DNA from: Nostoc carneum NIES-2107 | GTDB taxonomy: Bacteria; Cyanobacteriota; Cyanobacteriia; Cyanobacteriales; Nostocaceae | Assembly (NCBI GenBank): GCA_002368155.1 | Contig: AP018180.1 | Location: 3,412,719-3,476,718, forward strand | Reading direction: 5' to 3' | Length of the DNA: 64,000 nt | Shown here: positions 13,049 through 43,988 of the stretch, piece after piece | Numbering within the stretch: the first letter of the stretch is position 1 | Layout: every line of letters starts with the position of its first letter | Program-made: the position numbers and the translations under genes | The notes under the pieces: generated by a model | What the model was told of the DNA's origin: nothing | Database searches by the model: none | Seen by the model: the letters and a program-made list of their open reading frames with translations, nothing else

Positions 13049-14212
13049 ATGACCTTTTTATTAAATGCTCAGAATGTCTGCGATTATTTAGCTAGACATA
13101 ATCTTTGTTCTCCAAGCGAAACAAACCACATTGACATAGAGTTAAAATCTGCTAAAAATTTTAATTTATTACTAACACTGCCAAATCATCAAAAGCTGTT
13201 AGTCAAGCAAGAAAGGCATAATCACGAAGGGAAAGCATCTGGCGAATTTTTAAGTGAGTGGCGCATTCAAGAATTTGTACAAAAATTTCCCGAATTAAAT
13301 TATCTTCGCCCTTCTCTACCAGAGATACTGCATTATGATGCAGAAAATTCCATTATGGTAGCAAGATATCTAGACAATTATCAAGATTTAATGGAATTTT
13401 ACACCAAAGAGAAAATTTTTGATAGTAAAATTGCTGCGGCAATAGGTAATTTCTTAGCTAATATTCATCGTCATACTTTCAACCATCAACAATATCAGGC
13501 TTTCTTATCGGGTAATGCAGATGATTCTTACACAGAACAAGTAAGAAAAATGGTTCAGTATTTAGAAATAATAGAACCAGAAATTTTTGGTTTAGTACCT
13601 ACTGATGGGTTAAGATTTTTTGCACTGTATCAACGTTTTGATAGCTTAGGAACAGCTTTAAAAAATTTGGGTAATGCTGTGACTCCTTGTTGTTTAACTC
13701 ACAATGATCTCAAGCTAAATAATATATTAGTTCATAACAATTGGCAGCAATCCACTAACAATGTTATCCGCATAATTGATTGGGAACGTTCTGCTTGGGG
13801 AGATCCCGCATTTGATTTAGGAACACTAATTAGTAGCTACGTCCAATTATGGCTGGGTAGCTTAGTTATCAGTAAATCTTTGAGTCTGGACGAATCTCTA
13901 AGTTTAGCGATGACTCCCCTAGAAAAGCTTCAGCCTTCAATTGCGACATTAACCCAAGTTTATTTGCAGACATTCCCGGAAATTTTAAAACACCGTCCTG
14001 ATTTCTTGCTGCGTGTGATGCAATTTACAGGTTTTGCTTTGATTCAAGGGATTCAAGCAATGATTCAGTATCAAAAATCTTTTGGCAATACAGGTATTGC
14101 TATGCTTCAGGTTGCTAAAAGTTTATTATGTCGTCCAGAACAGTCCATACCAACAATTTTTGGTGCGATTGGTACAAGCGAATTAATTCAGCAAACCGCG
14201 TTAACTGCTTAA
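13049..14212 (+). CDS. APH/ChoK-like phosphotransferase of the lanthipeptide locus
   Basis: The 387-residue protein has the aminoglycoside-phosphotransferase kinase fold. Its Brenner loop is CLTHNDLKLNNILV (H-x-D-x4-N, near residues 223-232), followed by the metal-binding IIDWERSAWGDPAFDLG. A candidate ATP-binding lysine is in KLLVKQERHNHEGK. Such kinases pair with HopA1-type proteins in thioamitide and class V lanthipeptide clusters, where the pair dehydrates Ser/Thr by phosphorylation and elimination. Here it lies 24 bases before the HopA1-family gene and upstream of LanM. I infer a peptide-modifying role; self-resistance is the alternative. Confidence 0.8.
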   Translation: MTFLLNAQNVCDYLARHNLCSPSETNHIDIELKSAKNFNLLLTLPNHQKLLVKQERHNHEGKASGEFLSEWRIQEFVQKFPELNYLRPSLPEILHYDAENSIMVARYLDNYQDLMEFYTKEKIFDSKIAAAIGNFLANIHRHTFNHQQYQAFLSGNADDSYTEQVRKMVQYLEIIEPEIFGLVPTDGLRFFALYQRFDSLGTALKNLGNAVTPCCLTHNDLKLNNILVHNNWQQSTNNVIRIIDWERSAWGDPAFDLGTLISSYVQLWLGSLVISKSLSLDESLSLAMTPLEKLQPSIATLTQVYLQTFPEILKHRPDFLLRVMQFTGFALIQGIQAMIQYQKSFGNTGIAMLQVAKSLLCRPEQSIPTIFGAIGTSELIQQTALTA

Positions 14213-14236
14213 TAGACTTTTTATCATTCAATCATT

Positions 14237-15349
14237 ATGCAATTACTTAATTCTGTGCAAACTCAGCTTAAACCTGGCATCAATCAGCGCTTAGTCAATG
14301 TTCTGGAAGATATTGTTAACAATATTGAAATTCGCTCTGATTTTTCCATTCGCCATCCAGATTATCAACCCTTAGAAGTACCTGCTGAAGCTGTTGAACG
14401 CTTTCAAAAATTTCCTGCAGAAATGCAGCAAAAATATCTCAGTTTGCAGTTGCGAAGTTTTCTTTATGGTATTTATTACAACGGTTCAATGCAAAGTGAA
14501 CTAACAGCCGACAAAAAAACAAAAAATTTACCCTTAGATTTGGAAAATAATACAGTTCTAGGTGTAGATGTAGTTTTTTATAAACAATTGCATGAAAGTA
14601 ATTATGGAGAGGGTTATTTTCAGCCAGGATGGTCAATTTTAAAAGAAGAGAGTGATAGTAAATTAATAGTTAGCAAGGGTAGTTTGAAGCTGCACATTCA
14701 ACGGGATAAACATTTAGCTTCATCTCATACATCTGCTGCTGTCGGTGATGTAGTTCCGATTAAAATGCCAAAAAATATTGTCCAAAACGGCTTTTACATG
14801 GCAGTTAGTAATGCCGGATTATCTCGCCATAGTGCAGAAAATCTACAGATTGTGCGGATATATTTCAATCTCACCCCAGCAGGTGCTATTGCTGTCATGG
14901 GTGACATCACACAGCATTTAAATCAGATAAATATACCTTTTCAATTTAAAGTTTTGTACAATCCCAAAGATTATAATCGCTACGATTCTGGAGTTTTGTA
15001 CTTTGACAAAAGTGATTATGAATTGTTGAGACAATCATTAAAGATGATTTATCTCGAAAATCGTGAACATTTTAAATCAGAAATTCCTCTATTCACCAAA
15101 AAACTAGCACCAGGTTTAGGTTTAGCAGAAGAACCAAATCAAAAGTTTGCTGAACAAGAAAGTTTTGGGATGAATCGCTGTCAAATAATTGCAAATGGTT
15201 TACTTACTGCTTGGTATCAAGGAGATAATTCTCCTCAAAGACGGATAGCAGCAATTCAAGAGCAGTTTTTGCTGGTAGGAATTGATTTAGAATTTGTTCA
15301 CCTCAACGCTAATTCTGAAGATATTTACCAAGTATTAGAAGTATCTTAG
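14237..15349 (+). CDS. HopA1-family protein (putative split-dehydratase lyase partner)
   Basis: The 370-residue protein resembles the T3SS-effector HopA1 family found in many cyanobacterial RiPP clusters. Matching features are the helical N-terminal part (PAEMQQKYLSLQLRSFLYGIYYNGS), the central LGVDVVFYKQLHESNYGEGYFQPGW and a C-terminal FTKKLAPGLGLAEEP segment. In thioviridamide-type and class V lanthipeptide clusters a HopA1 protein acts with an APH kinase to eliminate phosphate from Ser/Thr. The recognition is from sequence memory and moderately certain. It sits between the kinase and lanM on one strand, with short spacers. Confidence 0.75.
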   Translation: MQLLNSVQTQLKPGINQRLVNVLEDIVNNIEIRSDFSIRHPDYQPLEVPAEAVERFQKFPAEMQQKYLSLQLRSFLYGIYYNGSMQSELTADKKTKNLPLDLENNTVLGVDVVFYKQLHESNYGEGYFQPGWSILKEESDSKLIVSKGSLKLHIQRDKHLASSHTSAAVGDVVPIKMPKNIVQNGFYMAVSNAGLSRHSAENLQIVRIYFNLTPAGAIAVMGDITQHLNQINIPFQFKVLYNPKDYNRYDSGVLYFDKSDYELLRQSLKMIYLENREHFKSEIPLFTKKLAPGLGLAEEPNQKFAEQESFGMNRCQIIANGLLTAWYQGDNSPQRRIAAIQEQFLLVGIDLEFVHLNANSEDIYQVLEVS

Positions 15350-15397
15350 CTAATGTAATTAAAAAATATTTCATTGAAGTTTATCAAAAATAATAAA

Positions 15398-18300
15398 ATG
15401 AAAATATCTGACTCAAAAATATCCCAAATAGTTATTAACGCTACTTTCTTGTCTGAAAACATCAATAACAAATATTACCAAAATATAAATTCTCAGCAAC
15501 TTGACCAAAACCTAATTGAAAAACATCTGCAAACTTGGTGTCAAGCAATTGGCGGAGAACAACAACTGAAACAACATCTTCATTGGGATGGATTAGATTT
15601 AAATACCGTGCGTTCCTTGTTAGTAACAGCAGATTTTAGCAAAGATGATAAATTACCAGCTTGGGCAGAAACCCTAAAAGAATTAATTGAAAGTGGTATA
15701 TCTTTACTAAATCTAGAAGCAGCAGAAAAATTACCCCTTGATTCGCAAAAACTTTTACCTTTTGAAGATTTTTATTTTCCATTTCTCTTGGTAGCACGCC
15801 GTAAATTATCTGCGGCGCTATCTCAAAATCATGATTTAAAGTTATTAAATATAGAAGCATATTTAACCTTAGAATATAGCTTACTGCAACAATTAGTAAG
15901 TTTAGGAACAGAAACATTATTATTTGAGTTTGATAAATTACGCCCAAATCAAGATTCTGCAAAGCAAGATAACCATACAGCAGAAAATAACAGTCGAATT
16001 ATTTATGATCAATTTATTCAAAATCTGCTCGAAGATGGAGGATTGAAGTTTTTTGAGCATTACCCTGTTTTAGCAAGACTGATCTCCACTAATATTAATT
16101 TTTGGGTAACCAATACTACTGAATTTATCCAACGGTTACAAGCTGATATCTCAGAAATTGAGCAGACTTTCTCTGAAGATATAAACATTGGAAAAGTCAA
16201 GGAAATAGAAACATCCCTATCAAACCGTCATCATGGTGGAGGTAGTATTTTAGCTATTACCTTTGATTCAGGCATCAAAATTGTCTATAAACCTAAAGAT
16301 TTGAGCTTAGATGTAGCTTTTAATAATTTACTAGATTGGTGTAATCAAAAAGGCATATCTTTACCATTTAAAATTACCAGAATTCTTCAACGACAAGAGT
16401 ATGCCTGGATTGAATTTATTGCTCACCAACCTTGTGAGCATCAAGCCGCAGTCAACAACTTTTATAAAAGAGCGGGAATGTTATTATCACTGCTGTTTGT
16501 ATTAGGCACTAAAGACTGTGGCTCTGAAAATGTGATCGCCAATTCTGAATATCCAATTCTGATTGATGCTGACATCTTAATGCATCCTCTAGTTAAAAGT
16601 AATGATGAATCAGAAGACTGGTTTCGAGATTCAGTTTTAAAAGCAGGATTTTTACCTGCTTGGGAAGGTAATACATTCTCAAAAAATGCTCAAGATTCCA
16701 GCGTACTAGGCAATATTTATCCCCAACAAGTCAATGCTTCTAGAGAGTGGCAATTTATTAATACAGATGGAATGCATCTAACTTCTAAAACAGCAATTAT
16801 TCCTTCTAGTACTAATGCGGTAATTTTAGAAGGTAAACCTGTTTCGCCCAGAAACTATGTAGAGAAAATTGTCACTGGTTTTGAGGAGATATACTGCTTA
16901 TTAATCAAAAACAAAGAAACTTTGTTGGGTGAAGACAGTCCTTTATCAACTATCAAATCATTAAAATCTCGATTTATCCCTCATCCATCCATACTATATG
17001 CTGTCGTCGCTAAAAACAGCCTCAATCCTCAATCTTTGCGTAATGGCATAGAATATAGCATTCTGATTAATAGCTTAATTGATACTTTTAGCCGTTCTTT
17101 GCTAAAAGTTGAAGCTAATCCAGAAAATTGGGCAATTTGGCAAGTAGAAACAAAGTCTTTGCAACAACAAGATATTCCCTATTTCTCTGTATGGTGTAAT
17201 AGTGATGATTTAGAAATTGAAAAAAACAAAGTAATTAAACAATTTTTTACAACATCCAGTTACCAAAGGTTAATTACTCAACTGCAAAATCTTGATGAAC
17301 AGAATTTAACTATACAAATTAAATTAATTCGGATGAGTTTTGATGCCAAGTTTGCTCATTTGACACAAAGAGATACTACTTTACAGGGCAATTTACCACA
17401 ATTTCACTCACTTACTACAGAAGAATTACTCCAAGAAGCTGTAGCAATTGGCAATAGTCTTATTTCTAATGCGATTTGTAATTCTCATGGATGTAACTGG
17501 ATTGATTTAGATTATATGTTCATGGCTAACCGCTACCAACTCCAGCCATTAGATGATTCTTTATATACAGGACGTGCTGGAGTTAGCTTATTTCTAGCAG
17601 CCTTAGCAAAAATAACTGGTAAAAATGAATTTAAAGAAGTCGCATTGTCTGCTTTATTACCTTTAAAGAAATCGCTCAAAAATTTAGAAAGTCGCCAAGA
17701 AATACTACAGTTAAAACTTGGTTTATCTGGCATTGGTGGTATGATTTACAGTCTAGTTAAAATTAGCCAATTTTTAGAATACTTCAGTATTTTAGAATAT
17801 GCACAGCTTGCTGCCAAGCTACTAACAAAAGAGGTAATTGCAAGCGATAAAAAACTAGACGTTATGTGGGGAGTAGCAGGGGCAATTCAAGGATTATTAT
17901 CTCTTTATCATCAAACAGGTGACCAAGTTGTGTTAGATATAGCAGTTACCTGTGGCAATCATTTATTATCGCAGCGAAATAATACCAAACCTAGAGCATG
18001 GGTAACAATAGAAAATAAAAAACCTTTAACTGGATTTGCTCATGGAGTATCAGGAATTTCTCTTTCTCTATTACGCTTATATGCTGCTGTAGGAGAAATA
18101 GCTTTTTTAACGGCTGCAAAAGAGGCAATAGAATATGAAAAAAGTGCCTTTGATAAATCAATACAGAATTGGCGAGATTACCCATCATCCGAACAAAATA
18201 ATCTGTATGCTTGGTGTCATGGCAGTCCGGGAATTGGGTTAGGTCGTTTAGGTAGTTTATCAATTATACAGACAGAAGAAATTTATTCAGACATTAATCT

Positions 18301-18616
18301 TGCTTTGGAAACTACCCAAAATTATGGAATACCTCATACAGATATAGACCATCTTTGCTGTGGACATATGGGAAGAGCAGAACTGTTTATTTTAGCATCC
18401 CAAAAATTAGTTAATCAGGAATGGCTAAATATTGCTAAACAACAGCTTAGGTGGGTTATAGACAGAGCAAAAATAAATGGAGAATATGCTTTAAGTTTTC
18501 ACTTGTATAAATCTGCTTATAGTCCTAGTTTTTTCCGAGGTAATGCAGGGATAGGTTATCAATTTCTACGTTTAGCATTTCCCGAAATTTTACCTTCAGT
18601 TTTAATTTGCGAATGA
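15398..18616 (+). CDS. lanM: Class II lanthipeptide synthetase LanM, CCG-type
   Basis: LanM enzymes dehydrate Ser/Thr and then cyclise Cys onto them. The ATG at 15398 gives 1072 residues; a TTG at 15374 would add eight. The N-terminal DUF4135 dehydratase domain has IKIVYKPKDLSLD (Lys 298), GTKDCGSENVIA (Asp 373, Asn 378) and YPILIDADIL (Asp 390). The usual D-x-H-x-x-N and IDLE patterns read D-C-G-S-E-N and IDAD, so the expected His is Gly. The LanC domain begins at SLYTGRAGVSLFLAAL and has GFAHGVSGIS, AWCHGSPGIG (Cys 940) and HLCCGHMG (Cys 987, Cys 988). The Cys-Cys-Gly zinc site is that of ProcM-like, low-selectivity enzymes. Two precursors follow. Confidence 0.93.
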   Translation: MKISDSKISQIVINATFLSENINNKYYQNINSQQLDQNLIEKHLQTWCQAIGGEQQLKQHLHWDGLDLNTVRSLLVTADFSKDDKLPAWAETLKELIESGISLLNLEAAEKLPLDSQKLLPFEDFYFPFLLVARRKLSAALSQNHDLKLLNIEAYLTLEYSLLQQLVSLGTETLLFEFDKLRPNQDSAKQDNHTAENNSRIIYDQFIQNLLEDGGLKFFEHYPVLARLISTNINFWVTNTTEFIQRLQADISEIEQTFSEDINIGKVKEIETSLSNRHHGGGSILAITFDSGIKIVYKPKDLSLDVAFNNLLDWCNQKGISLPFKITRILQRQEYAWIEFIAHQPCEHQAAVNNFYKRAGMLLSLLFVLGTKDCGSENVIANSEYPILIDADILMHPLVKSNDESEDWFRDSVLKAGFLPAWEGNTFSKNAQDSSVLGNIYPQQVNASREWQFINTDGMHLTSKTAIIPSSTNAVILEGKPVSPRNYVEKIVTGFEEIYCLLIKNKETLLGEDSPLSTIKSLKSRFIPHPSILYAVVAKNSLNPQSLRNGIEYSILINSLIDTFSRSLLKVEANPENWAIWQVETKSLQQQDIPYFSVWCNSDDLEIEKNKVIKQFFTTSSYQRLITQLQNLDEQNLTIQIKLIRMSFDAKFAHLTQRDTTLQGNLPQFHSLTTEELLQEAVAIGNSLISNAICNSHGCNWIDLDYMFMANRYQLQPLDDSLYTGRAGVSLFLAALAKITGKNEFKEVALSALLPLKKSLKNLESRQEILQLKLGLSGIGGMIYSLVKISQFLEYFSILEYAQLAAKLLTKEVIASDKKLDVMWGVAGAIQGLLSLYHQTGDQVVLDIAVTCGNHLLSQRNNTKPRAWVTIENKKPLTGFAHGVSGISLSLLRLYAAVGEIAFLTAAKEAIEYEKSAFDKSIQNWRDYPSSEQNNLYAWCHGSPGIGLGRLGSLSIIQTEEIYSDINLALETTQNYGIPHTDIDHLCCGHMGRAELFILASQKLVNQEWLNIAKQQLRWVIDRAKINGEYALSFHLYKSAYSPSFFRGNAGIGYQFLRLAFPEILPSVLICE

Positions 18617-18989
18617 AATAACTGTTTGTAGTAACTATATTTAGTATCTCAAATTTTATATTGAATCAGCATAATTAGAATATTATGCTGATTTTTTAAT
18701 GACTCAATAAAATTTAATGAAATAAAGTTCCAAAAAAGGTTTAGTTTTATCTTAATTACAAGTACTTTTGGTTTTTCTGGGAGTTAAGAATTAAATATAT
18801 GTGCTTTTTATACGTTTCAACTATTTTCATTATGCAAATAGCATCCGAAAAATGTAATTTTTATGTCTCATAAATGCTTAGTTTATTTGCATACATCGTT
18901 ATTTTTTCTGGTTATTATGTACATATAAATCAAAGTTTGTTTGATTTATAAATGACAATGAAAACAAGTAAACACTGGAGTTAGAACAA
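18617..18989. other. Intergenic between lanM and the first precursor, 373 bases
   Basis: It begins with a strong terminator (18664-18697) and is otherwise very AT-rich. The terminator implies that the precursor peptides have their own promoter in this stretch. Confidence 0.5.
18664..18697 (+). terminator. Rho-independent terminator after lanM
   Basis: AATCAGCATAAT pairs perfectly with ATTATGCTGATT across a 6-base loop and is followed by T residues. It lies 48 bases after the lanM stop. Confidence 0.8.
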
Positions 18990-19169
18990 ATGGCTAATAT
19001 CAAAGTAAATGAATTACTACATCTCAGCCTAACTGGTAGTGAATTATTTAATGATTCAGAAAGCTTTTTAACTGAACTGAGCGATGAAACCGAACAAATG
19101 GGAGTAATTGGTGGTGCTTGCAACTGTTGTTGGTTCACCTCATGGAGCAAGTACTGTAAAACAGTTTAA
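18990..19169 (+). CDS. Lanthipeptide precursor peptide LanA1, 59 aa
   Basis: This short ORF has a 43-residue leader nearly identical to the next gene's: it starts MANIKVNELLHLSLTGSELF, continues NDSESFLTELSDETEQMG and ends VIGGA. The core after the Gly-Gly site is CNCCWFTSWSKYCKTV, with four Cys (44, 46, 47, 56) and four Ser/Thr (50, 51, 53, 58). A GGAG motif (18977-18980) lies 9 bases upstream of the ATG. A conserved leader with a divergent Cys-rich core is typical of CCG-LanM substrates. The C39 exporter downstream could cut after Gly-Gly. Confidence 0.88.
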   Translation: MANIKVNELLHLSLTGSELFNDSESFLTELSDETEQMGVIGGACNCCWFTSWSKYCKTV

Positions 19170-19301
19170 TTTCATAATTAGAGATACTATTTTTTTGTTA
19201 AGGTACCTCTAATAGAACATTCTATAGTGCTTATAAATTAGAATAATATATTTTTAATTTATAAGTCATGCTAACAACCAAGAATTACTGGAGAGTAAAA
19301 A

Positions 19302-19493
19302 ATGGCTAATATCAATGTCAACGATTTATTGCATCTCAATTTAATTGGCAGTGATTTATTGAACGATTCAGAAAGCTTTTTGACTGAACTGAGCGATGAA
19401 AGCGAGCAAATGGGAATAATCGGTGGTGCTTGTAAGTTGCTGAGCTTGATTTGTTGTAACTGTACCTATGTTACAGAACATGTTATAGAATAA
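19302..19493 (+). CDS. Lanthipeptide precursor peptide LanA2, 63 aa
   Basis: The leader (residues 1-43, MANINVNDLLHLNLIGSDLL then NDSESFLTELSDESEQMG then IIGGA) closely matches LanA1. The core is CKLLSLICCNCTYVTEHVIE, with four Cys (44, 51, 52, 54) but only three Ser/Thr (48, 55, 58). Both cores place a Cys immediately after GGA. A GGAG site (19290-19293) precedes the ATG. A terminator hairpin follows at 19578. With Cys exceeding Ser/Thr, at least one thiol must stay free or form a disulfide. Confidence 0.9.
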   Translation: MANINVNDLLHLNLIGSDLLNDSESFLTELSDESEQMGIIGGACKLLSLICCNCTYVTEHVIE

Positions 19494-19577
19494 CAATATT
19501 ACAAGATAATTGGTTGTAAAAGCAACACAATTATTTTGCTTTCAGCTCCTATATAGGCTGTTAAAATATTAAGAAAT

Positions 19578-19624
19578 ATAGCCAGCAACTTCTTATTTAG
19601 GATGAACTGCTGGCTATTTTATTG
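19578..19624 (+). terminator. Terminator after the precursor peptides
   Basis: ATAGCCAGCA pairs with TGCTGGCTAT around a loop of about 20 bases, followed by TTTTATTG. It sits between the convergent lanA2 and ppiC-like genes and likely ends the precursor transcript. Confidence 0.7.
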
Positions 19625-19648
19625 TTAATTTAAATCCAGAACAAGTCT

Positions 19649-20401
19649 CTATTCTAAATGTTTAACCACCTCAAATTTTGCCACTTCTTGTTTCACCCAA
19701 TCTGTAAAGAATTCTGATATAAGTTGATAACGCAAGTTATCACTCAATTCGGGTGTAATAATCTCTTCTACCATAATCAAATGTACGCCCTTAGACGTAA
19801 TAATAGGCTTGAGAAGTTGAGGTGGTTTGGCGGCAAACACAGCAGCCGAGATTTCTGGGTTTAGATTCTTACGATTAACTTTTCCTCGATATCCACATTT
19901 GCGACGTAATTCTGTATCTTGGATGTACTGATTAGCTACATCATAAAAACTAGTTTCACCTTCCTTAATGGTATAAAACAACTCCATTGCTAAATCTTCA
20001 TCATCCAAGATAACTTCGTATATTACCGCACCAGCATAGTCTAGTTGATTTTCAAAAAAATATGGTTCTACTTTATCTGCAAATAAATGTTGAGCCAACT
20101 TATTAGCAAACAAATTAGCTTGTACTATTTCTTCAAAATCATCCAGAGAAAGAGCATGTTTTTCTAACCATCTCCATGTATCTTCCGAACTTTCAAGTTT
20201 ATTCATTAATCGGAAATTATCTGCTGCTTTTTGCAGTTCTTCAGTCTCTACTTGAATCCCCATCTCTGATACAGTGGTTTCAATTATTTTATGGGTAATA
20301 ATCTTTTCAATTAAATCAGGAATGTGACGGTATTGTTTGAGAATATGCAGAATATCTTGGTTGCTGATTGTGATGGGTTGTAACATAATTTTGCTCCACA
20401 A
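19649..20401 (-). CDS. PpiC-type peptidylprolyl isomerase of the export locus
   Basis: This 250-residue protein has a SurA-like helical N-terminal region (residues 1-120) and a parvulin domain (about 130-225) with ELRRKCGYRGKVNRKNLNPEISAAVFAAKPPQLLKPIITSKGVHLIMVEE, in which the GYRG and KGVHLI segments are family hallmarks. Parvulins of this kind often accompany cyanobacterial peptide exporters. The protein lacks an obvious signal peptide, so it may act on substrates before export. The first residues (MWSKIM) may not be used; MLQPIT at 20383 is an alternative start. It is the last gene of the minus-strand export set. Confidence 0.88.
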   Translation of the reverse strand: MWSKIMLQPITISNQDILHILKQYRHIPDLIEKIITHKIIETTVSEMGIQVETEELQKAADNFRLMNKLESSEDTWRWLEKHALSLDDFEEIVQANLFANKLAQHLFADKVEPYFFENQLDYAGAVIYEVILDDEDLAMELFYTIKEGETSFYDVANQYIQDTELRRKCGYRGKVNRKNLNPEISAAVFAAKPPQLLKPIITSKGVHLIMVEEIITPELSDNLRYQLISEFFTDWVKQEVAKFEVVKHLE

Positions 20402-20442
20402 ATAACTGACAGTTACACAAATATCGGGTGAGCTATTAAGTT

Positions 20443-21951
20443 TTAGCTTCCTTGTTGTAACTGTTTGAATGGGTCTAGTAAAAAGTCAATAATTCGACGC
20501 TGACGCACAATTACTTCTGCGGTTGCTGTATCGCCAGGACGTAAAGGTGTACATTTATTTTTACTAGGAATACAATTACTTTTCAGGGCAATTTCTAAAT
20601 TATATGCAGCAATTTTTCCATTAGGTGTATCAATTTCTGATGTAGTTGGAGAAATCTCTAATAACTCGCCTTCAATAATTCCATAATCTTGAAAAGGATA
20701 GGCATCAAATTTTAGTTTTACTGGCAATCCTTTGCGTAAAGAACCACTTTCAGATGTAGGCATTTGTGCGCGAATAATTAACGGTGAATTTTCGGGAGCA
20801 ATTTCTGCAACCATTGTTCCAGGTTGAACAACTGCACCAGGACGCTGAATTGGGAGTTGAAATACTCTCCCAGCAATGGGAGATTTTAATATTCGTTGCT
20901 GTAATTGCAATTGCAAGCTGTTAATTTGACTATTAGTTTGAGCAATTTCTGCTTGTAAGGTGGTCGTTTCTGTGTCTAAATTTTTTAATTGCTCCTCACT
21001 TTTGAGTACAGCTAGTTTTCCTGAATGAGTTAATGCTTGATAACTACGTTTTTGTTCCTTTAAGCGCAAATATGCTTGTTCAATTTCTGCCTTGGCTTGG
21101 CGAATTGTACGCTGATAGCTACTCTGCTGTTCGGCTAGGCGAAGATTGGCTTGTTTGATATCGGATTTGCTTTGTTCGTATAATCTCTGCCTGTCTTTGG
21201 CGATATCTTGCTTATCAACAACATTAATTTCGGGAATAGCACCAGCTTGTTGAAGTTGGTTGTAGCGTTCTACTTCTCTTTGGGCGCTGGCTAGACTATT
21301 TTCTAATAATTTATTTGCCGTTTGAGTTTGTTCGATAGTTTGTCGTGCTTGATTAACTTGGGTAATTTTTTCGGTTTGTTGAATTTCGTAGGAGTTTTTT
21401 AAAGCCGTTAAATTTTGCTGGGCTTGCTCAATTTGGGCTTGTTTTTCTAACTCTTGAGCCTGATTTTGTTGGCGTTGAGTTGCTAAAGAGACGATGATTT
21501 GATTTTTCAGCAGATTTAATTGCGATCGCCTATTTAATTGTCCTTCTAATTTCTCCTTACTTTGGCGCAAATCAGACTTAACTAAGTCTGCATCTAATAT
21601 CATGACAGGTTCTCCAGGTTTGACTAGATCACCTTCTTTGACTGGGATAGATGTAACTGTCCCTGGTACAGCACTATCTAACTTAAATGTTTTACCTTTT
21701 GGCTCAAGTCTTCCCCTAGCTGTACCAGTTTCATCTATTTTCGATAACATCGCCCAAGGTAAAGCAATAGATATAAAACTGAGCAAAAAATACAACATAC
21801 CCCTAGTCCAAACTTGAGGTAAGCTATCTAGTAAATCTTTAGTGTATTCAGACAAATCATCAGGCAATTGATTGATGTTTGTAGATGATGTATCTGGCTG
21901 TTCGTAGTCATTGATGGTATTTGCTACTTCGCCGTTAAATATCTCGGACAT
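20443..21951 (-). CDS. HlyD-family membrane fusion protein (lanthipeptide exporter adaptor)
   Basis: The frame is open from 22041, but the first 30 codons look non-coding; the ATG at 21951 (MSEIFNGEVAN) gives 502 residues. One transmembrane helix near residues 55-75 (GMLYFLLSFISIALPWAML) is followed by a lipoyl-like half motif (PGTVTSIPVKEGDLVKPGEPVMILDADLV). A long Gln-rich coiled coil (about 130-350) precedes the second half (LKSPIAGRVFQLPIQRPGAVVQPGTMVAEIAPE) and the beta-barrel domain. It would bridge the ABC exporter to an outer-membrane TolC-like channel, which is not encoded here. Confidence 0.92.
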   Translation of the reverse strand: MSEIFNGEVANTINDYEQPDTSSTNINQLPDDLSEYTKDLLDSLPQVWTRGMLYFLLSFISIALPWAMLSKIDETGTARGRLEPKGKTFKLDSAVPGTVTSIPVKEGDLVKPGEPVMILDADLVKSDLRQSKEKLEGQLNRRSQLNLLKNQIIVSLATQRQQNQAQELEKQAQIEQAQQNLTALKNSYEIQQTEKITQVNQARQTIEQTQTANKLLENSLASAQREVERYNQLQQAGAIPEINVVDKQDIAKDRQRLYEQSKSDIKQANLRLAEQQSSYQRTIRQAKAEIEQAYLRLKEQKRSYQALTHSGKLAVLKSEEQLKNLDTETTTLQAEIAQTNSQINSLQLQLQQRILKSPIAGRVFQLPIQRPGAVVQPGTMVAEIAPENSPLIIRAQMPTSESGSLRKGLPVKLKFDAYPFQDYGIIEGELLEISPTTSEIDTPNGKIAAYNLEIALKSNCIPSKNKCTPLRPGDTATAEVIVRQRRIIDFLLDPFKQLQQGS

Positions 21952-22415
21952 AATGTCTTTTTTGGGGGAAATTTGCAATTGATGGCAATACTTGTCGGTT
22001 AAGGGTAAAAAGGGGAATGGTAAAAGGGAAATAAAAAACATTTAACCTTTTCCCCAAAGCCAATTTGGAGTTCAAAACTCTTAACCGATTAGTATTGAGT
22101 TTGATGCTTAAAAATACTTGCATATACCATTCCACTTAAATCTTGAGACAAATTAGCTGGATAGCGGGTTGAGCAATGCTAAACCCCTATGCAAAATCTA
22201 TCTATCAAGAATTTTGTAAATTGGTATAAGGAAGCGAATAGGGAATAAAGATGTAATAAAAACTTTTCAAAAATCAAACATTTGAAGATATCACGCTTGA
22301 CTGTGAAAGATGCTCTGTAGAAATCACAGTAATCATCAGTTGTAACTCTCAATCAGACTAGTTGAAATTTCCGAAGTGAGATATGCTGTAATTGTTCCAT
22401 TTTTCTCATCTCAAT
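21952..22415. other. Gap between exporter ABC gene and HlyD gene, 464 bases
   Basis: It contains the inverted copy of the dispersed hairpin repeat (22161-22231) plus AT-rich sequence. No gene is visible. The gap is unusually long for an operon and may hold a separate promoter for the adaptor gene. Confidence 0.45.
22161..22231 (-). repeat. Dispersed hairpin repeat, minus-strand copy
   Basis: Read on the minus strand it gives ATACCAATTT...ATAGATTTTGCATAGGGGTTTAGCATTGCTCAACCC, matching 12731-12801 at about 80 percent by eye, in the opposite orientation. Confidence 0.65.
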
Positions 22416-25139
22416 TTAAGCTGATGCATCCAACTGTTGTTGATTGAGATAGAAATAATGTCCGCGTTTACTCATCAATTCTTGGTGAGTTCCACTTTCA
22501 ATTAATACACCTTTATCTAAGACCAAAATTAAATCGGCATTTCTGACAGTGGAAAGACGATGAGCAATTACTAAGGTAGTTCTTCCCTTAAGAATTGTAT
22601 TAAAATTCTTCTGAATTATTCTTTCCGATTCAGTATCTAAATGGGAAGTTGCCTCATCTAAAATTAATAAGCGAGGATTACCTAACAAAGCTCTAGCTAT
22701 AGCGATTCTTTGTCTTTGTCCTCCTGAAAGCATTCCTCCGCCTTCACCAGTTTGAGTTTCATAGCCCATTGGTAATTTTTTAATGAACTCATCAGCACCA
22801 GCTTGAGTTGCGGCTGCAATGATTTCTTCTAATTTTGCACCTGGATTTCCTAAGCTAATATTGTCCCGAATTGTACCGCCAAATAAAAATGTATCTTGGT
22901 CAACTACTCCAACTTGTTGGCGTAAGGAACGCAAGGAAATAGTAGTAATATCGCATCCATCAATTAATATTTTGCCATCGCTAGGGGGATATAAGCCTAA
23001 AACTAACTTAGAAATGGTAGTTTTTCCCGAACCACTGCGTCCTACTAATGCTACCATCTGTCCGGGTTGAATATGAAAGCTGAGGTTTTCGATCACATTA
23101 GTATCACTTTCTGAGTGATAGCGAAAGGTGACATTTTCAAATTGGATGTCACCTTTAATTGCAGGTAAATTCTGTTTTATTTGCTTTTGTAAGTTTTCCT
23201 CTGGTTCGGCATCTAATACATCATTAATGCGTTCCATAGCAATTACAACTTCTTGCAGTTGGTTCCACAATACTGTTAAACGTTGGAAGGGCGCAATAAT
23301 CGTATTTAACAGCATATTAAATGCCACAAGCTGTCCAATTGTTAACTGATTTTGAATGACTAGATGCGCTCCAAACCATAGCATAGCTGTAGTGGCAATT
23401 GCTTGAATTGAATTGCTAAAAATTTGCAAGCGATTGCTAATAACTTCTCCAGAAAACCCAGTTTTAATGGCTTTGTGCAATAACTCTTCCCAATGCCAGC
23501 GTACTGTTTGTTCTACGGCTGTAGATTTCACTGTTCGCACCCCAGAAATAGCTTCAATTAAATAGCTACTTTCTTGGCTGTAAGCACTAAATATCTCACG
23601 GGAAATCTTCTTTAAAAAGGGTGTTGCAACCAAAGCTAGTAAAAAGAATGGCGGTACAATTAATAAAGCCAGTAATGCCATTTGCCAACTGTACCAAAAC
23701 ATTAATCCTACATAGATAAATACTGTGAGTAAATCTAAGAGGATTGATAAAGCTTCTCCAGACAGAAAGCGTTGAATTTTACGATTTTCTTGGACGCGAG
23801 AAATAATATCCCCAACATAACGCGTTTCAAAGAAACTTAGAGGAAGTTGCAAAGTATGACGGATAAATCCGACAATTAAAGCGACATCTAGCTTATTGGC
23901 AGTATGGTCTAGTAAATATTGCCGCAAACCTGTTAGTGCTACACGAAATAAACTAAAAATTAGCAATCCTAAACCTACAGCCGTTAAAGTTAACTCAGAA
24001 CGCTGCACCACCACTCTATCGAGAATAAACTGGGTAAATAAGGGGGTAATTAAGCCAAATATTTGGATAAACAAGGAAGCTAAAAAGACTTCTAGCAACA
24101 CCAAGCCGTGAGGTTTAATTAACTCAAAAAATTGCCAAAAAGGTGTTGTACTTTCTTCCGTATCTTTTAAAAGGGCTGTGGGTTGCAGTAGCAGTGCATA
24201 TCCAGTCCAATCTGCTTTAAATTCCCGATGAGTCAGGGTACGCTGACCAATGGCTGGGTCTGCAACTATGACATATTTATTGGTGATTTCATAGACGACT
24301 ATATAATGTTTGCCCTCCCAGTGAGCGATCGCAGGTAATTTTTGCTTGGCTAATTGGTCGAGACTGGCTTTTACGGGTCTTGTGTTAAATCCGATACTTT
24401 CGGCTGCAATTGATAACCCACGCAGAGATGCACCGTTGCGATCCACATTCGCAATATCTCGCAAAAAATTGACACTAAAACGCTTTCCCCAATAACGAGA
24501 CACCATCACCAAACAAGCTGCACCACAATCTGATGCACTCTGCTGGGCAAAATATGGATAGCTTTTGGTGACGCGTTGCCATAAATGCCCGACTCTTTGG
24601 GTAGGGTTGGGAAAGTAGGCTTTGCTAATCTGTTTCTGGGAATTATTGGCTGGTGGTGGGGAAGAACTGGTGACGGTTGGCTGTTCAACAAGCTGGGGAG
24701 ATGGGGGTTCACTGTCAGACTTAACAAATAGGGAATTTCTTGCTTGTGCTTGGGTGCGTAAATGTGCGTAAATTTGTGGATATTTGCCTATCAATGGTGA
24801 CAGTATTTCCCCATTCAAAAAAGCTAGGTGTAAATTAACACTGGCTCTGGCGGCATAAGCTTGAAAACCAGCCTCTCGAAACAAGGTAAATTCACCAAAT
24901 GATTGTCCTACTTCCAAAGTTGCAATCAATTCACCTGCATGATCGAGTAATCTGACTTTACCTGCAAGTACAATGTAGATACCTGGTTCAACATCTGTTC
25001 CTTGCCAAAATTTTCCTACCTTGGGAGTAAGATATTTAACTTGTTGAAGGCAGTGCTGTAAGTCTTCTGAGGAGAGGGAATCACCCAAGACACTGCATAG
25101 TTGCTGCATAGACAGCGACTCTGAGATATATTGCGCCAT
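22416..25139 (-). CDS. Peptidase-containing ABC exporter with N-terminal cyclic-nucleotide-binding domain
   Basis: The 907-residue protein has four parts. Residues 1-130 are a cNMP-binding-like barrel (GIYIVLAGKVRLLDHAGELIATLEVGQSFGE). A Pro/Ser linker leads to a C39 peptidase near 200-325, with catalytic Cys in SASDCGAACLV, His in HWEGKHYIVVYE and Asp in VADPAIGQR. A six-helix ABC membrane domain follows (about 345-625). The ATPase has Walker A GRSGSGKTT, signature LSGGQRQR and Walker B LLILDEATSHLD. C39 domains cut leaders after Gly-Gly, matching the GGA sites of LanA1 and LanA2. It starts 36 bases after the HTH gene and forms the core of the minus-strand export set. Confidence 0.95.
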   Translation of the reverse strand: MAQYISESLSMQQLCSVLGDSLSSEDLQHCLQQVKYLTPKVGKFWQGTDVEPGIYIVLAGKVRLLDHAGELIATLEVGQSFGEFTLFREAGFQAYAARASVNLHLAFLNGEILSPLIGKYPQIYAHLRTQAQARNSLFVKSDSEPPSPQLVEQPTVTSSSPPPANNSQKQISKAYFPNPTQRVGHLWQRVTKSYPYFAQQSASDCGAACLVMVSRYWGKRFSVNFLRDIANVDRNGASLRGLSIAAESIGFNTRPVKASLDQLAKQKLPAIAHWEGKHYIVVYEITNKYVIVADPAIGQRTLTHREFKADWTGYALLLQPTALLKDTEESTTPFWQFFELIKPHGLVLLEVFLASLFIQIFGLITPLFTQFILDRVVVQRSELTLTAVGLGLLIFSLFRVALTGLRQYLLDHTANKLDVALIVGFIRHTLQLPLSFFETRYVGDIISRVQENRKIQRFLSGEALSILLDLLTVFIYVGLMFWYSWQMALLALLIVPPFFLLALVATPFLKKISREIFSAYSQESSYLIEAISGVRTVKSTAVEQTVRWHWEELLHKAIKTGFSGEVISNRLQIFSNSIQAIATTAMLWFGAHLVIQNQLTIGQLVAFNMLLNTIIAPFQRLTVLWNQLQEVVIAMERINDVLDAEPEENLQKQIKQNLPAIKGDIQFENVTFRYHSESDTNVIENLSFHIQPGQMVALVGRSGSGKTTISKLVLGLYPPSDGKILIDGCDITTISLRSLRQQVGVVDQDTFLFGGTIRDNISLGNPGAKLEEIIAAATQAGADEFIKKLPMGYETQTGEGGGMLSGGQRQRIAIARALLGNPRLLILDEATSHLDTESERIIQKNFNTILKGRTTLVIAHRLSTVRNADLILVLDKGVLIESGTHQELMSKRGHYFYLNQQQLDASA

Positions 25140-25174
25140 GAAATTCTGAACTAGTACTTACTTTTTTTGCGTAT

Positions 25175-25777
25175 TTATTTTTCTGATTCCCAAAGAAAGA
25201 ATCCCGTAAGATTACGCGATTTTTCGGATTTAAGATCAGAAATCAAGATTTTTTGTCCTGCGGTTTTCTTGGTATGTTCACTCTGAGATGGAGTGGGTTT
25301 GGGGATGGTTGATAACCCCATTTGTTTGAGGATGCGTTTAAGATGGCGATCGCTAACTTCAATTCCCAATTCTTTCGCTAAATGCTTTCGCAACCAATTG
25401 ACTGTCCAGCGTCTAAACCCATAGCCACAATCCCTAGGACTTTGAGAAAGTAACTGTTGTAAGCGTTCCAAATATTCCTGATTAATTGCTTTTGGGCGAC
25501 CTAGAGGGCAATCTTGCCATTGGTGCGCCATCCCAGTACGCGCAATATGCATCCAATGTCGTGCTGTCGCCGGAGAACATTTTAATGTCTGACAAATTTC
25601 GGTTTGAGTTTTGCCCTCATCTGCCAACAACATAATTTCGATTCGCTGACGATAAGACTCAGGCAAATCATCTTGTAAATTTTTTTGCAGCTGCTTGTGC
25701 TGAAATGGTGTTAAATACTTACCTGTACCCATATTTGGGAGATTAACTTCAGGTTGCTCAAAATCGGTTGACATCAC
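25175..25777 (-). CDS. Helix-turn-helix protein (IS630-like HTH fold) heading the export operon
   Basis: The 200-residue protein has a central HTH (LADEGKTQTEICQTLKCSPATARHWMHIARTG, about residues 51-82) and a second winged-helix-like region (RWTVNWLRKHLAKELGIEVSDRHLKRILKQMGLS). Both resemble the DNA-binding half of IS630-type transposases, but no DDE catalytic domain follows. It may be a transcription factor for the exporter genes, with which it is probably co-transcribed (35-base gap). The basic, low-complexity C-terminal tail is unusual. A transposase remnant is the alternative. Confidence 0.75.
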   Translation of the reverse strand: MMSTDFEQPEVNLPNMGTGKYLTPFQHKQLQKNLQDDLPESYRQRIEIMLLADEGKTQTEICQTLKCSPATARHWMHIARTGMAHQWQDCPLGRPKAINQEYLERLQQLLSQSPRDCGYGFRRWTVNWLRKHLAKELGIEVSDRHLKRILKQMGLSTIPKPTPSQSEHTKKTAGQKILISDLKSEKSRNLTGFFLWESEK

Positions 25778-39676: not shown

Positions 39677-39798
39677 GGGATTGGGGATTGGGGACTGGGG
39701 ATTAGGGACTGGGGATTGGGGAGATGAGGCAGAAATTCCAATTACCCATTACCCATTACCCTTTCCCCCATGCCCAATGCCCCATGCCCCATGCCCTA
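39677..39798. repeat. STRR repeats before the HlyD gene
   Basis: GGGGATT/GGGGACT units, then ATTACCC and CCCATGC units, lie between the cNMP gene and the HlyD gene. They stay open in the HlyD reading frame, which artificially lengthens that ORF. Confidence 0.8.
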
Positions 39799-39818
39799 TT
39801 TATATATTTGGAGTCACT

Positions 39819-41261
39819 ATGGTTACGGCTCAAAAAAACAATATATTTCGTAAAGAAGCACTGGATCGTTTATCTTCCCCGGAACGGCTGGATCAATTGA
39901 TGCAGGTGGTGCAGCCGAAGAAGTGGATTCCGTTGGCGGCGTTGGGTTCTTTGGTGGCGGTGGGTGTGGCTTGGAGTGTTTACGGTCGCATTCCCATTAC
40001 TGTGAATGGACAAGGGGTAGTAGTTTTCCCTAGTAAGGTCGTGCCTTTTCAGTCTCCAAGTTCTGGGCAGATTTTGAATTTATTGGTGCGTGCGGGCGAT
40101 CGCGTGAAGAAAGGACAGGTGATTGCAACTATCGACCAAACGGAACTGCAAGAAAAGCTGGATTTGGCAAGGGCGAAGCTGTTGCAACTGCAAGAACAAG
40201 ACCGCAGTGCTAATTCGCTGCAAGCACAACGCACAGTTTTGGATCAGGGTGCAACGCAACAACAGCGTCAAGCACTGTTACAAAGTTTAGAAACTACTAA
40301 ATCGGTCACGCCAATTCTCCGGGATAAGGGTTTAGAGTCGATTCGCCAAGAAAGGCGGACTTTAGAGCAACAGTTGGAAACAACGCGCAAGCTAGTCCCG
40401 ACTTTTCAAGAACGGTTTGAATTGCGGCAACAATTACGCCGTGAAGGTGCTGTATCTAGTGATACCGTACTGCAAGCGGAGCAGGAATTTCTCAGTAGCA
40501 AAAGTCGCATTGATGAAATTCAATCGCAACTGAAACAACTGGATGTGAAAGAAGCCGATGCCCAAAGGCAATATTTAGCTAACTTAAACGCCACCAAAGA
40601 ACTACAAGCCCAGTTAGCAACATTAGATACTAAATTAGCTTCCCAAGCCGAACAAGATTTAGCGATCGCTACCAATCGGAAAAAAGAAATTCAAGAAACC
40701 GAAAGAGCGATCGCGCAATTAAAATCGCAATTAAAAGATAGAAACAAAGTTATTAGCAGCTTCAACGGTCAAATATTAGAACTGACAGTTGTTCCCGGAC
40801 AAAGCTTAGAAGAAGGCGCACGTATTGGCACCATCCAAGCCCAAGATTCCACTGATAAGTTAGTGGGAGTCGCATTCTTCCCAGTCAGTGAAGGTAAAAA
40901 GATTCAAAAAGGTATGGAGTTGCAAATTACTCCCTCTACTGTGAAGCGCGAACGCTTTGGGGGAATCGTCGCCAAAGTAACCAGTGTTTCGTCTTTTCCC
41001 GTCACCAAAGAAAGTGCATCCAGCGTTGTCGGTGGTGCAGAAATTTTGCAAGGCTTAACCTCCCAAGGGCCGCAAATTCAAGTCTTTGCTGAACTCGAGC
41101 CAGATTCCTCAACTAAAAGCGGTTTTCGCTGGTCATCTTCAAAGGGGCCAGAAGCCAAAGTCACCTCAGGAACCACCACCTCAGTCCGCGTCAAAGTTGA
41201 CGAACAATCACCAATTTCTTTTGTCTTCCCCATACTCCGTTCTTGGAGTGGAATGTATTAA
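39819..41261 (+). CDS. HlyD-family adaptor, NHLP bacteriocin system secretion protein
   Basis: The frame is open from 39681, but the first 46 codons are translated repeat DNA. The ATG at 39819 (MVTAQKNNIFRKEAL) has a GGAG site and gives 480 residues. One helix (KWIPLAALGSLVAVGVAWSVYG, about 35-56) anchors the protein. The lipoyl-like half VVPFQSPSSGQILNLLVRAGDRVKKGQVIATID follows, then a long coiled coil (about 110-315), the second half and a beta domain. It joins the NHLP transporters in the envelope. Confidence 0.93.
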   Translation: MVTAQKNNIFRKEALDRLSSPERLDQLMQVVQPKKWIPLAALGSLVAVGVAWSVYGRIPITVNGQGVVVFPSKVVPFQSPSSGQILNLLVRAGDRVKKGQVIATIDQTELQEKLDLARAKLLQLQEQDRSANSLQAQRTVLDQGATQQQRQALLQSLETTKSVTPILRDKGLESIRQERRTLEQQLETTRKLVPTFQERFELRQQLRREGAVSSDTVLQAEQEFLSSKSRIDEIQSQLKQLDVKEADAQRQYLANLNATKELQAQLATLDTKLASQAEQDLAIATNRKKEIQETERAIAQLKSQLKDRNKVISSFNGQILELTVVPGQSLEEGARIGTIQAQDSTDKLVGVAFFPVSEGKKIQKGMELQITPSTVKRERFGGIVAKVTSVSSFPVTKESASSVVGGAEILQGLTSQGPQIQVFAELEPDSSTKSGFRWSSSKGPEAKVTSGTTTSVRVKVDEQSPISFVFPILRSWSGMY

Positions 41262-41429
41262 ATGGGCATGGGGCATGGGGCATTGGGCATTGGGTATTGG
41301 GTAATTGGTAATTGGTAATTGGTAATTGGTAATAGTAATTTCTCACTTTCCCCTTATCCCCTTGTCCCCTTGTCCCCAATCCCCAGTCCCCAATCCCTCC
41401 TCACGACAAATCCTTACTGAACACGAACT
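41262..41429. repeat. STRR repeats between HlyD and NHLP transporter genes
   Basis: Tandem GGGGCATTGGGCATT, TTGGTAA and CCCCAAT/CCCCAGT units fill this spacer. Confidence 0.75.
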
Positions 41430-43679: not shown

Positions 43680-43688
43680 GAAAGGCAA

Positions 43689-43876
43689 GAAAACGAACCG
43701 CGAAGGCACGAAGTACACGAAGTAAGAAGAAAAGAAGAAAAATTCAAAATTTGATTTACCCATCGAAATTAATAACATAAAACACTAATGCTTTGTGCCA
43801 TGAGTTGTGCGAAGTAAACTCCTTCTTCATTTCTCTTCCTTTGTGTACTTCGCGTCTTTGCGGTTCGTTTTTTATA
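43689..43876. repeat. Long imperfect inverted repeat between the two NHLP transporter genes
   Basis: AAAACGAACCGCGAAGGCAC at 43690 onward, continuing GAAGTACACGAAG, is inverted near 43839-43875 (CTTTGTGTACTTCGCGTC, TTTGCGGTTCGTTTT), with about 105 bases between. It looks like a MITE or dispersed palindrome inserted in the operon. Confidence 0.65.
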
Positions 43877-43988
43877 ACCATCAGAATTAATGTGCTGAAT
43901 TACTAATAATAATTTCAAAAATAAATGATTACGGCAGATGGAGTTACGGAAGATAATTCTCAATCCAAAATCGTATAAGGGGCATATT

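Follow-up and report, generated by a model that had tools for sequence, protein, structure and literature searches.

The stretch of DNA analysed here (the window) comprises 64,000 nucleotides of contig AP018180.1 from Nostoc carneum NIES-2107 and contains a lanthipeptide locus, at which the gene of a LanM-type synthetase follows genes for an APH-type kinase and a HopA1-family lyase. The features of this locus are listed below; all coordinates count within the window.

13049..14212, plus strand: APH-type kinase, LanK/LxmK-like (P0001); HNDLKLNN and IIDWE motifs intact, matches in Pfam and NCBIfam
14237..15349, plus strand: HopA1-family lyase, LanY-like (P0002); PF17914 match, CaoY-type residues at near-CaoY spacing
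15374..18616, plus strand: LanM (P0003) with degenerate dehydratase and intact zinc ligands; TIGR03897 and Pfam matches, CylM/LicM2 alignment
18990..19169, plus strand: precursor peptide 1, Gly-Gly leader, core ACNCCWFTSWSKYCKTV
19302..19493, plus strand: precursor peptide 2, Gly-Gly leader, core ACKLLSLICCNCTYVTEHVIE
19649..20401, minus strand: PpiC-type peptidyl-prolyl isomerase-like protein; syntenic at many related loci
20443..22041, minus strand: HlyD-type adaptor; profile match
22416..25139, minus strand: C39-peptidase ATP-binding cassette (ABC) exporter; profile match
25175..25777, minus strand: 200-residue helix-turn-helix (HTH) protein, similar to the N-terminus of IS630 transposases; profile match and synteny

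The genes of the kinase, the HopA1 protein and LanM all lie on the plus strand and are separated, as called, by gaps of 24 bases. The LanM frame as called starts at a TTG codon; an ATG eight codons downstream, at position 15398, is the likelier start. As the gene arrangement recurs in relatives, it is not due to chance. A sequence-only reading of the window had placed an APH-like kinase with an intact Brenner motif, a HopA1 protein, a full LanM and two Gly-Gly precursors on one strand, with an exporter set converging from the opposite strand. Open reading frames (ORFs) and profile matches bear out this layout: both kinase motifs are present, and the exporter set occupies positions 19649-25139 of the minus strand. 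The LanM is indeed full with respect to length and the presence of both domains; the changed catalytic residues of its dehydratase had been overlooked. Scans for promoters and terminators gave nothing beyond the level of shuffled sequence, and a plasmid search returned no match at 60% identity or more.

Catalytic residues of the LanM clade

The window LanM combines in one chain a DUF4135 dehydratase domain (PF13575, 393.2 bits) and a LanC domain (PF05147, 218.8 bits), scores 915.6 bits against TIGR03897 (NCBIfam), and matches the structure chains of LicM2 (6st5) and CylM (5dzt). In an alignment with CylM and LicM2, residues N284, G383, D400 and S539 occupy the positions of CylM D252, H349, E366 and T512. 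The cyclase zinc ligands C948, C995 and C996 are intact and of the CCG type, which we take to be that of the ProcM-like LanMs. Of the attributes of a class II LanM, the DUF4135 plus LanC architecture and the zinc ligands are present, whereas the set of nine dehydratase residues is incomplete; these changes rule out that the LanM is simply canonical. AlphaFold models of the LanM (mean predicted local distance difference test score 34.7, alignment of 4 sequences) and of the HopA1 protein (46.5, alignment of 3 sequences) were too poor for use.

Mutants of CylM have been characterized (PMC4550811). Upon co-expression, D347A, N352A and D364A showed no detectable dehydration, H349A and K274A a little; N352A gave traces of modification on long incubation in vitro. 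In the mutants D252A, H254A, R506A and T512A elimination was impaired and phosphorylated peptide accumulated; T512A performed no elimination at all, and H254A completed it slowly.

For comparison, a LanM set was compiled from all ORFs of at least 1000 residues in the window and the fetched loci (L; genomes are designated G), which left out, among others, two pieces at L097 and the 431-residue LanC of L149. After three duplicates (L091, L093, L177) had been dropped, 85 proteins remained. In the underlying searches, no more than the two or three top candidates were scored in each genome; all clade members listed were fetched, and the non-clade LanMs are a hand-picked part. The set is split by a wide gap: against the window LanM, 17 proteins reach 1201 bits or more and the other 68 at most 941.5 bits. 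The 17, which are distinct proteins from 15 genomes, form one branch with support 100/100 and a long stem, referred to here as the clade. A scan of genome contigs with LanM led to three loci, and a sample of 386 genomes from across the phylum, with the two best candidates of each being scored, gave no clade member outside the window's order. Conservation in the two groups, in CylM numbering, is as follows.

D252: kept in 2/17 clade LanMs and 68/68 others
H254: kept in 16/17 clade LanMs and 68/68 others
K274: kept in 17/17 clade LanMs and 68/68 others
D347: kept in 7/17 clade LanMs and 68/68 others
H349: kept in 3/17 clade LanMs and 63/68 others
N352: kept in 14/17 clade LanMs and 68/68 others
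D364: kept in 17/17 clade LanMs and 68/68 others
R506: kept in 15/17 clade LanMs and 68/68 others
T512: kept in 7/17 clade LanMs and 65/68 others (serine in the remaining three)
Zinc ligands: intact in 17/17 clade LanMs and 54/68 others

The DxH motif (CylM D347/H349) is intact in none of the 17 clade members, compared to 63 of the 68 other LanMs (Fisher value 8e-14, which treats relatives as independent and is descriptive only). D252 is changed in 15 and D347 in 10 of the 17, and every clade member lacks one of these aspartates or both. All nine catalytic residues, with serine allowed at 512, are intact in 0/17 clade members versus 63/68 others; the equivalent of E366 (column 400) is an aspartate throughout the clade. 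The broken DxH motif differs between sub-lineages: DCG in the window's lineage, and NCH, NCD, KCH, SCD or NCQ elsewhere. On a 31-row tree built without the catalytic columns, the minimum number of changes between kept and lost, which does not tell losses from regains, is 3 at D252, 2 at D347, 3 at H349 and 5 at T512. Such a varied decay of the motif suits relaxed constraint. By analogy with the CylM mutants, loss of kinase activity is expected in the LanMs without D347 (the Moorena type and several others); for the window's lineage, an impairment of the dehydratase is expected, short of proof of its death.

Separately, five LanMs without a nearby pair (L124, L133, L135, L139, L145) have a tyrosine, phenylalanine or leucine at the equivalent of H349; the one of L145 also lacks the zinc ligands.

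The kinase/lyase pair and the precursors

The kinase scores 49.2 bits against PF01636 (cut-off 23.2); its best NCBIfam match is the class V kinase LxmK (NF038156) with 82.2 bits, which is under the equivalog cut-off of 315. The HopA1 protein scores 199.5 bits against PF17914 and matches PDB chain 9dk1_B (named only "Lyase") at 3.2e-6. According to our mapping, its residues R207, K238, R248 and Y255 are close to the spacing of R187, K219, R229 and Y236, the catalytic residues of CaoY (PMC9486802). The kinase motifs HNDLKLNN and IDWE are conserved at the clade loci, as are the R, K, R and Y residues of the HopA1 protein near CaoY spacing; judged by these residues, the pair looks active. A precedent for a dehydration split between two such proteins is the in vitro reaction of CaoK and CaoY on the cacaoidin precursor (PMC9486802). 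As in class V, a HopA1 lyase with its catalytic residues is present; the absence of a class I-IV synthetase, which also belongs to class V, does not apply here, as LanM lies directly downstream. For a flavin decarboxylase of AviCys formation and the second APH protein LanX, inspection by eye, made without a profile search for them, showed no obvious candidate among the window ORFs.

Divergent members of both families were seen as well. At positions 22087-23214 of L059, near several precursors, lies a second APH protein with the altered catalytic loop HNNIQFNK. At L039 (at about 4.363 Mb in the window's own genome) and L054, the HopA1 protein has Q or E at the counterpart of CaoY K219; the adjoining APH kinases keep the catalytic Asp and Asn, and no leader-family precursor occurs in these stretches. 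These two HopA1 proteins are possible lyase-dead relatives.

The neighbourhood search was performed with phmmer on stop-to-stop ORFs in fetched stretches of up to 20 kb, some of which are cut by contig ends. At 10 loci (window, L057, L178-L182, L090, L094, L096), no more than 300 bases separate a HopA1 gene from the clade LanM; at L055, L059 and L184, the distance is within 4 kb. These 13 loci, which represent 13 of the 15 genomes, also have an APH kinase within 5 kb. The stretch L183 opens close to the start of a contig; the pair of its genome (G360) is located at L184. Near L092, the second LanM of G084, there is only a HopA1 fragment, the full pair being next to the first LanM; L055 and L092 lie next to each other in one genome and have a precursor in common. 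At L097 (G254), a pair with one shortened gene lies beside a broken LanM, which is not counted among the 17. Among the 15 genomes none was found to have a clade LanM and no pair, and for the 68 other LanMs (61 loci) the fetched stretches contain no match to APH or HopA1. HopA1 is present in 91 of 291 sampled genomes of the order, namely in 8/8 with a clade LanM (including the broken one of G254) versus 83/283 others (p = 7e-5, a value that overstates independence).

The neighbourhood check suggested along with the sequence-only reading gave a divided answer: the pair is within 5 kb of the clade LanM in 13/15 genomes, but pair-only loci (21 + 20) make up the majority of the fetched HopA1/APH loci. 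"Pair-only" describes the fetched stretch; for two of these loci, L185 and L187, the genome has a clade LanM at another place. In the HopA1 and APH trees, which hold the first sample only, pairs from clade LanM loci fall into more than one branch. The label "joined to clade LanM" requires 5 changes on the HopA1 tree (at least 3 on well supported branches) and 6 on the APH tree (at least 4). These changes suggest that LanM and the pair were joined or parted more than once, which is partly a labelling effect, as pairs elsewhere in clade genomes were scored as unjoined and the divergent second APH protein of L059 as joined.

Both window precursors have one common Gly-Gly leader, and each core contains four cysteines. 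A hidden Markov model (HMM) that started from the two leaders and was extended iteratively through all short ORFs matches 17 of 18 clade loci (L097 included) and 16/21 plus, in a second set, 14/20 pair-only loci (30/41), in contrast to none of 61 LanM-only loci (62 listed; L093 duplicates the clade locus L058). Eight hand-picked precursors of LanM-only loci have a Nif11, NHLP or mersacidin leader, seven scoring over the cut-off and one just under; the two window precursors match none of these models. The HMM pattern, together with the leader types at LanM-only loci, indicates that the clade LanM has switched to the leader family that belongs to the kinase/lyase pathway.

The cores differ according to the presence of LanM. 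Two or more cysteines are present in 41 of the 47 unique cores from clade loci, versus 5 of the 42 from pair-only loci. Counted by locus, 17/17 clade loci with precursors have at least one such core, versus 4/16 pair-only loci of the first set (L044, L049, L056, L186). The second set of 20 pair-only loci, which includes close relatives of the window's pair and has no LanM match, comprises 14 loci with leader-family precursors, one of which (L218) has such a core; for both sets combined, the contrast is 17/17 versus 5/30. Identical cores were counted once in the unique-core and second-set counts, and cores shorter than 8 residues, containing X or unparsed by the leader pattern were omitted (6 of 50 matches in the second set, none with two cysteines; first-set omissions were not counted). 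According to these cores, cysteine content tracks LanM presence, as a cyclase would need.

At the pair-only loci L041-L043, L047, L052, L200-L204, L213 and L214, the parsed cores are free of cysteine and often repeated as near-copies. These clusters are candidates for the production of dehydrated, ring-free peptides.

The precursors also bear on the second option of the sequence-only reading, according to which each enzyme acts on its own peptide. Several non-identical precursors per cluster have been described (PMC8153245), and the Moorena loci L059 and L092 hold several, a few with a single cysteine; the two window precursors, however, share one leader, which makes this option less likely there, and both are Cys-rich, and a LanM without dehydratase would be unable to make rings alone. 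That pair and LanM serve different precursors at one locus is, in our judgement, very improbable.

Proposed division of labour

We consider it probable that the locus encodes a hybrid class II/class V pathway, in which LanK and LanY dehydrate and LanM survives as a zinc cyclase. The APH kinase (LanK), guided by the shared leader, would phosphorylate serine and threonine residues of the core, and the HopA1 protein (LanY) would eliminate the phosphate to give dehydroalanine or dehydrobutyrine. LanM, its own kinase/elimination site being degenerate, would add cysteine thiols to the dehydro residues by means of the zinc cyclase domain; the C39 ABC transporter would then cut after Gly-Gly and export the product. 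Catalytic steps, division of labour, ring formation and export are all inferred from sequence. The first option of the sequence-only reading, dehydration by the pair with LanM acting mainly as cyclase, gains support from the clade residues, the zinc ligands, the pair, the leaders and the Cys-containing cores.

Several observations weigh against this proposal. The window LanM retains H254, K274, D347, N352, D364 and R506, and nucleotide binding may persist in the clade, as K274 and D364 are kept in 17/17. Residual dehydratase activity of the window LanM is possible, because CylM-H349A reached almost full modification after 10 h in vitro (PMC4550811) and because five of the 68 LanMs without the pair lack H349 as well (T512S occurs in 3/68); on account of these five, loss of H349 is not decisive and was rejected as proof of inactivity on its own. 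At L058 (Moorena bouillonii, G160) and L095 (G169), the pair lies elsewhere in the genome (L185, L187); at the clade locus L096, the leader HMM found no leader-family precursor; and G042 has Cys-bearing precursors and the pair, with no clade LanM among its matches. Moreover, the clade data are of one origin, so that p-values overstate independence. Clade members are on average 64.9% identical in DUF4135 versus 65.4% in LanC, and the ratio of nonsynonymous to synonymous substitution rates (omega) among clade relatives is 0.21-0.28 versus 0.14-0.57 (six control pairs: 0.12-0.23 and 0.10-0.24). Where 90% of 54 other LanMs agree on a column, the clade departs from it in 18.3% of cases for DUF4135 versus 13.4% for LanC, a modest difference. 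The LanC half is not under stronger constraint than the dehydratase half; both are under purifying selection, perhaps slightly relaxed.

Since these whole-domain measures fail to single out the dehydratase, the case for the hybrid pathway rests on the active-site residues. A domain-wide decay of the dehydratase is not claimed, as identity and omega show no weaker constraint there. General drift alone was rejected: 55 of 153 catalytic cells (36%; nine residues) are changed in the clade, compared to 18.3% for the conserved DUF4135 columns and 0 of 51 zinc-ligand cells.

That LanM still has a slow or selective dehydratase and divides the work with the pair, acting on some serines and threonines or performing phosphorylation or elimination only, appears unlikely to us. 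D347, K274, N352 and D364 in the window LanM, two of them (K274, D364) invariant in 17/17, would suit such an enzyme, as would the slow but not dead CylM-H349A (PMC4550811) and the purifying selection on the dehydratase domain (omega 0.21-0.28). However, the window LanM has lost D252 and 10/17 clade members have lost D347, E366 is replaced by aspartate in 17/17, and the residues lost vary by sub-lineage, which fits relaxed constraint better than a new specificity. Hardly credible is a LanM that is merely a non-enzymatic relic or scaffold, with rings spontaneous or absent. The long clade stem, the altered conserved columns in both domains and the non-enzymatic ring closure described for a class V peptide (PMC12291118) would agree with it, whereas the zinc ligands intact in 17/17, omega below 1 in the LanC part and the occurrence of Cys-rich cores mainly where the clade LanM is present argue against it.

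The dehydratase domain has been retained and must therefore do something; it is conceivable, though we advance this only tentatively, that it is a pseudokinase scaffold which binds the leader, a nucleotide or the LanK/LanY pair. If so, the result would be a three-protein synthetase outside classes I-V, a class II enzyme having been taken into a class V pathway.

A further observation concerns the LanM gene itself: among the window, L057 and L178-L180, the dehydratase half shows a synonymous divergence of 0.10-0.22 and the LanC half one of 0.25-0.65. This contrast suggests that the cyclase part was possibly recombined or exchanged.

With respect to export, the C39 ABC protein likely cleaves at Gly-Gly and exports the product; its N-terminus resembles cyclic-nucleotide-binding domains, with a score of 27.4 bits that narrowly misses the cut-off of 27.5. 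The HTH protein scores 81.6 bits against an IS630-type transposase model, under the cut-off of 100. In 22/22 stretches with that side uncut (window, L040, L044, L057, L058, L178, L180-L182, L187 and 12 second-set pair-only loci), it lies upstream of a strong C39 ABC match (>1000 bits), mostly directly adjacent and at L044 1.6 kb away. As the gene is syntenic, stray transposase debris was rejected as an explanation, and as only 35 bases separate it from the ABC gene in the window, no DDE part follows. It is probably a cluster gene and a possible regulator, and looks like a domesticated transposase derivative. A second exporter set, consisting of an HlyD-like protein and two ABC proteins resembling the C39 ABC protein, lies about 14 kb away (39681-46910, plus strand); the leader HMM found no precursor there.

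Relation to known systems

The Family 1A clusters of PMC8153245 likewise have HopA1 beside a phosphotransferase, a Gly-Gly leader and several precursors; judged from the leader HMM, the window locus shares its conserved leader with 30/41 pair-only loci, a trait in which it appears to agree with this family. For the HopA1-LanC clusters (Families 11/20, 22), it was proposed that the pair could dehydrate for a LanC (PMC8153245). In contrast to these families, the cyclase lies here inside a full-length LanM with degenerate dehydratase, an arrangement that the section on these families does not mention; as LanM has a LanC-like domain, loci of the present type may sit in that dataset. At L149 (G188), a LanC-like protein on its own (431-residue frame) stands in a row with APH and HopA1 proteins; this set, which is distant from the pair of the window, resembles the published HopA1-LanC type.

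LanK/LanY of class V (cacaoidin CaoK/CaoY, PMC9486802) are likewise an APH kinase and a HopA1 lyase, the catalytic residues of CaoY have counterparts here, and "type-B" cyanobacterial precursors were noted for the class V pathway (PMC9486802). Class V is defined by the absence of class I-IV synthetases, whereas the present locus has a LanM-derived zinc cyclase, and its kinase stays under the LxmK equivalog cut-off. With ProcM-like class II LanMs of the CCG type, the window LanM has the DUF4135 plus LanC architecture and the three-Cys zinc site in common; it differs in its degenerate dehydratase, a leader outside Nif11, NHLP and mersacidin, and LanK/LanY alongside. The LanM-like CA_C0082 proteins of Clostridium also lack conserved dehydratase residues, but they are shortened, lie beside agr with no other lanthipeptide machinery and lack the zinc ligands (PMC10301443), which are intact here. 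LanMbC of dehydrazole pathways (CcaM, PMC10676384) also derives from LanM and carries out just one of the two reactions, and is in this respect a mirror image of the window LanM.

In the open-licence PMC literature, as far as covered, we found no description of a LanM next to LanK/LanY that combines a degenerate dehydratase with an intact zinc site, nor of the catalytic decay, the leader switch or the cysteine contrast. Pairs near LanC-like proteins are already published, and the co-occurrence of LanM and pair may be implicit in published datasets; relative to the literature covered, the LanM clade with degenerate dehydratase is new here.

If the proposed pathway is true, a bifunctional synthetase of ribosomally synthesized and post-translationally modified peptides was dismantled in evolution, one half being kept while another pathway supplies the other. 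The annotation boundary between class II and class V would then be blurred, because a LanM match alone would label such clusters ordinary class II. A zinc cyclase naturally parted from its own dehydratase, in combination with Cys-rich precursors, would make the two steps of lanthionine formation separately testable. The proposal would also suggest that many pair-only cyanobacterial clusters make dehydrated peptides with few or no cysteines, and hence mostly without lanthionine.

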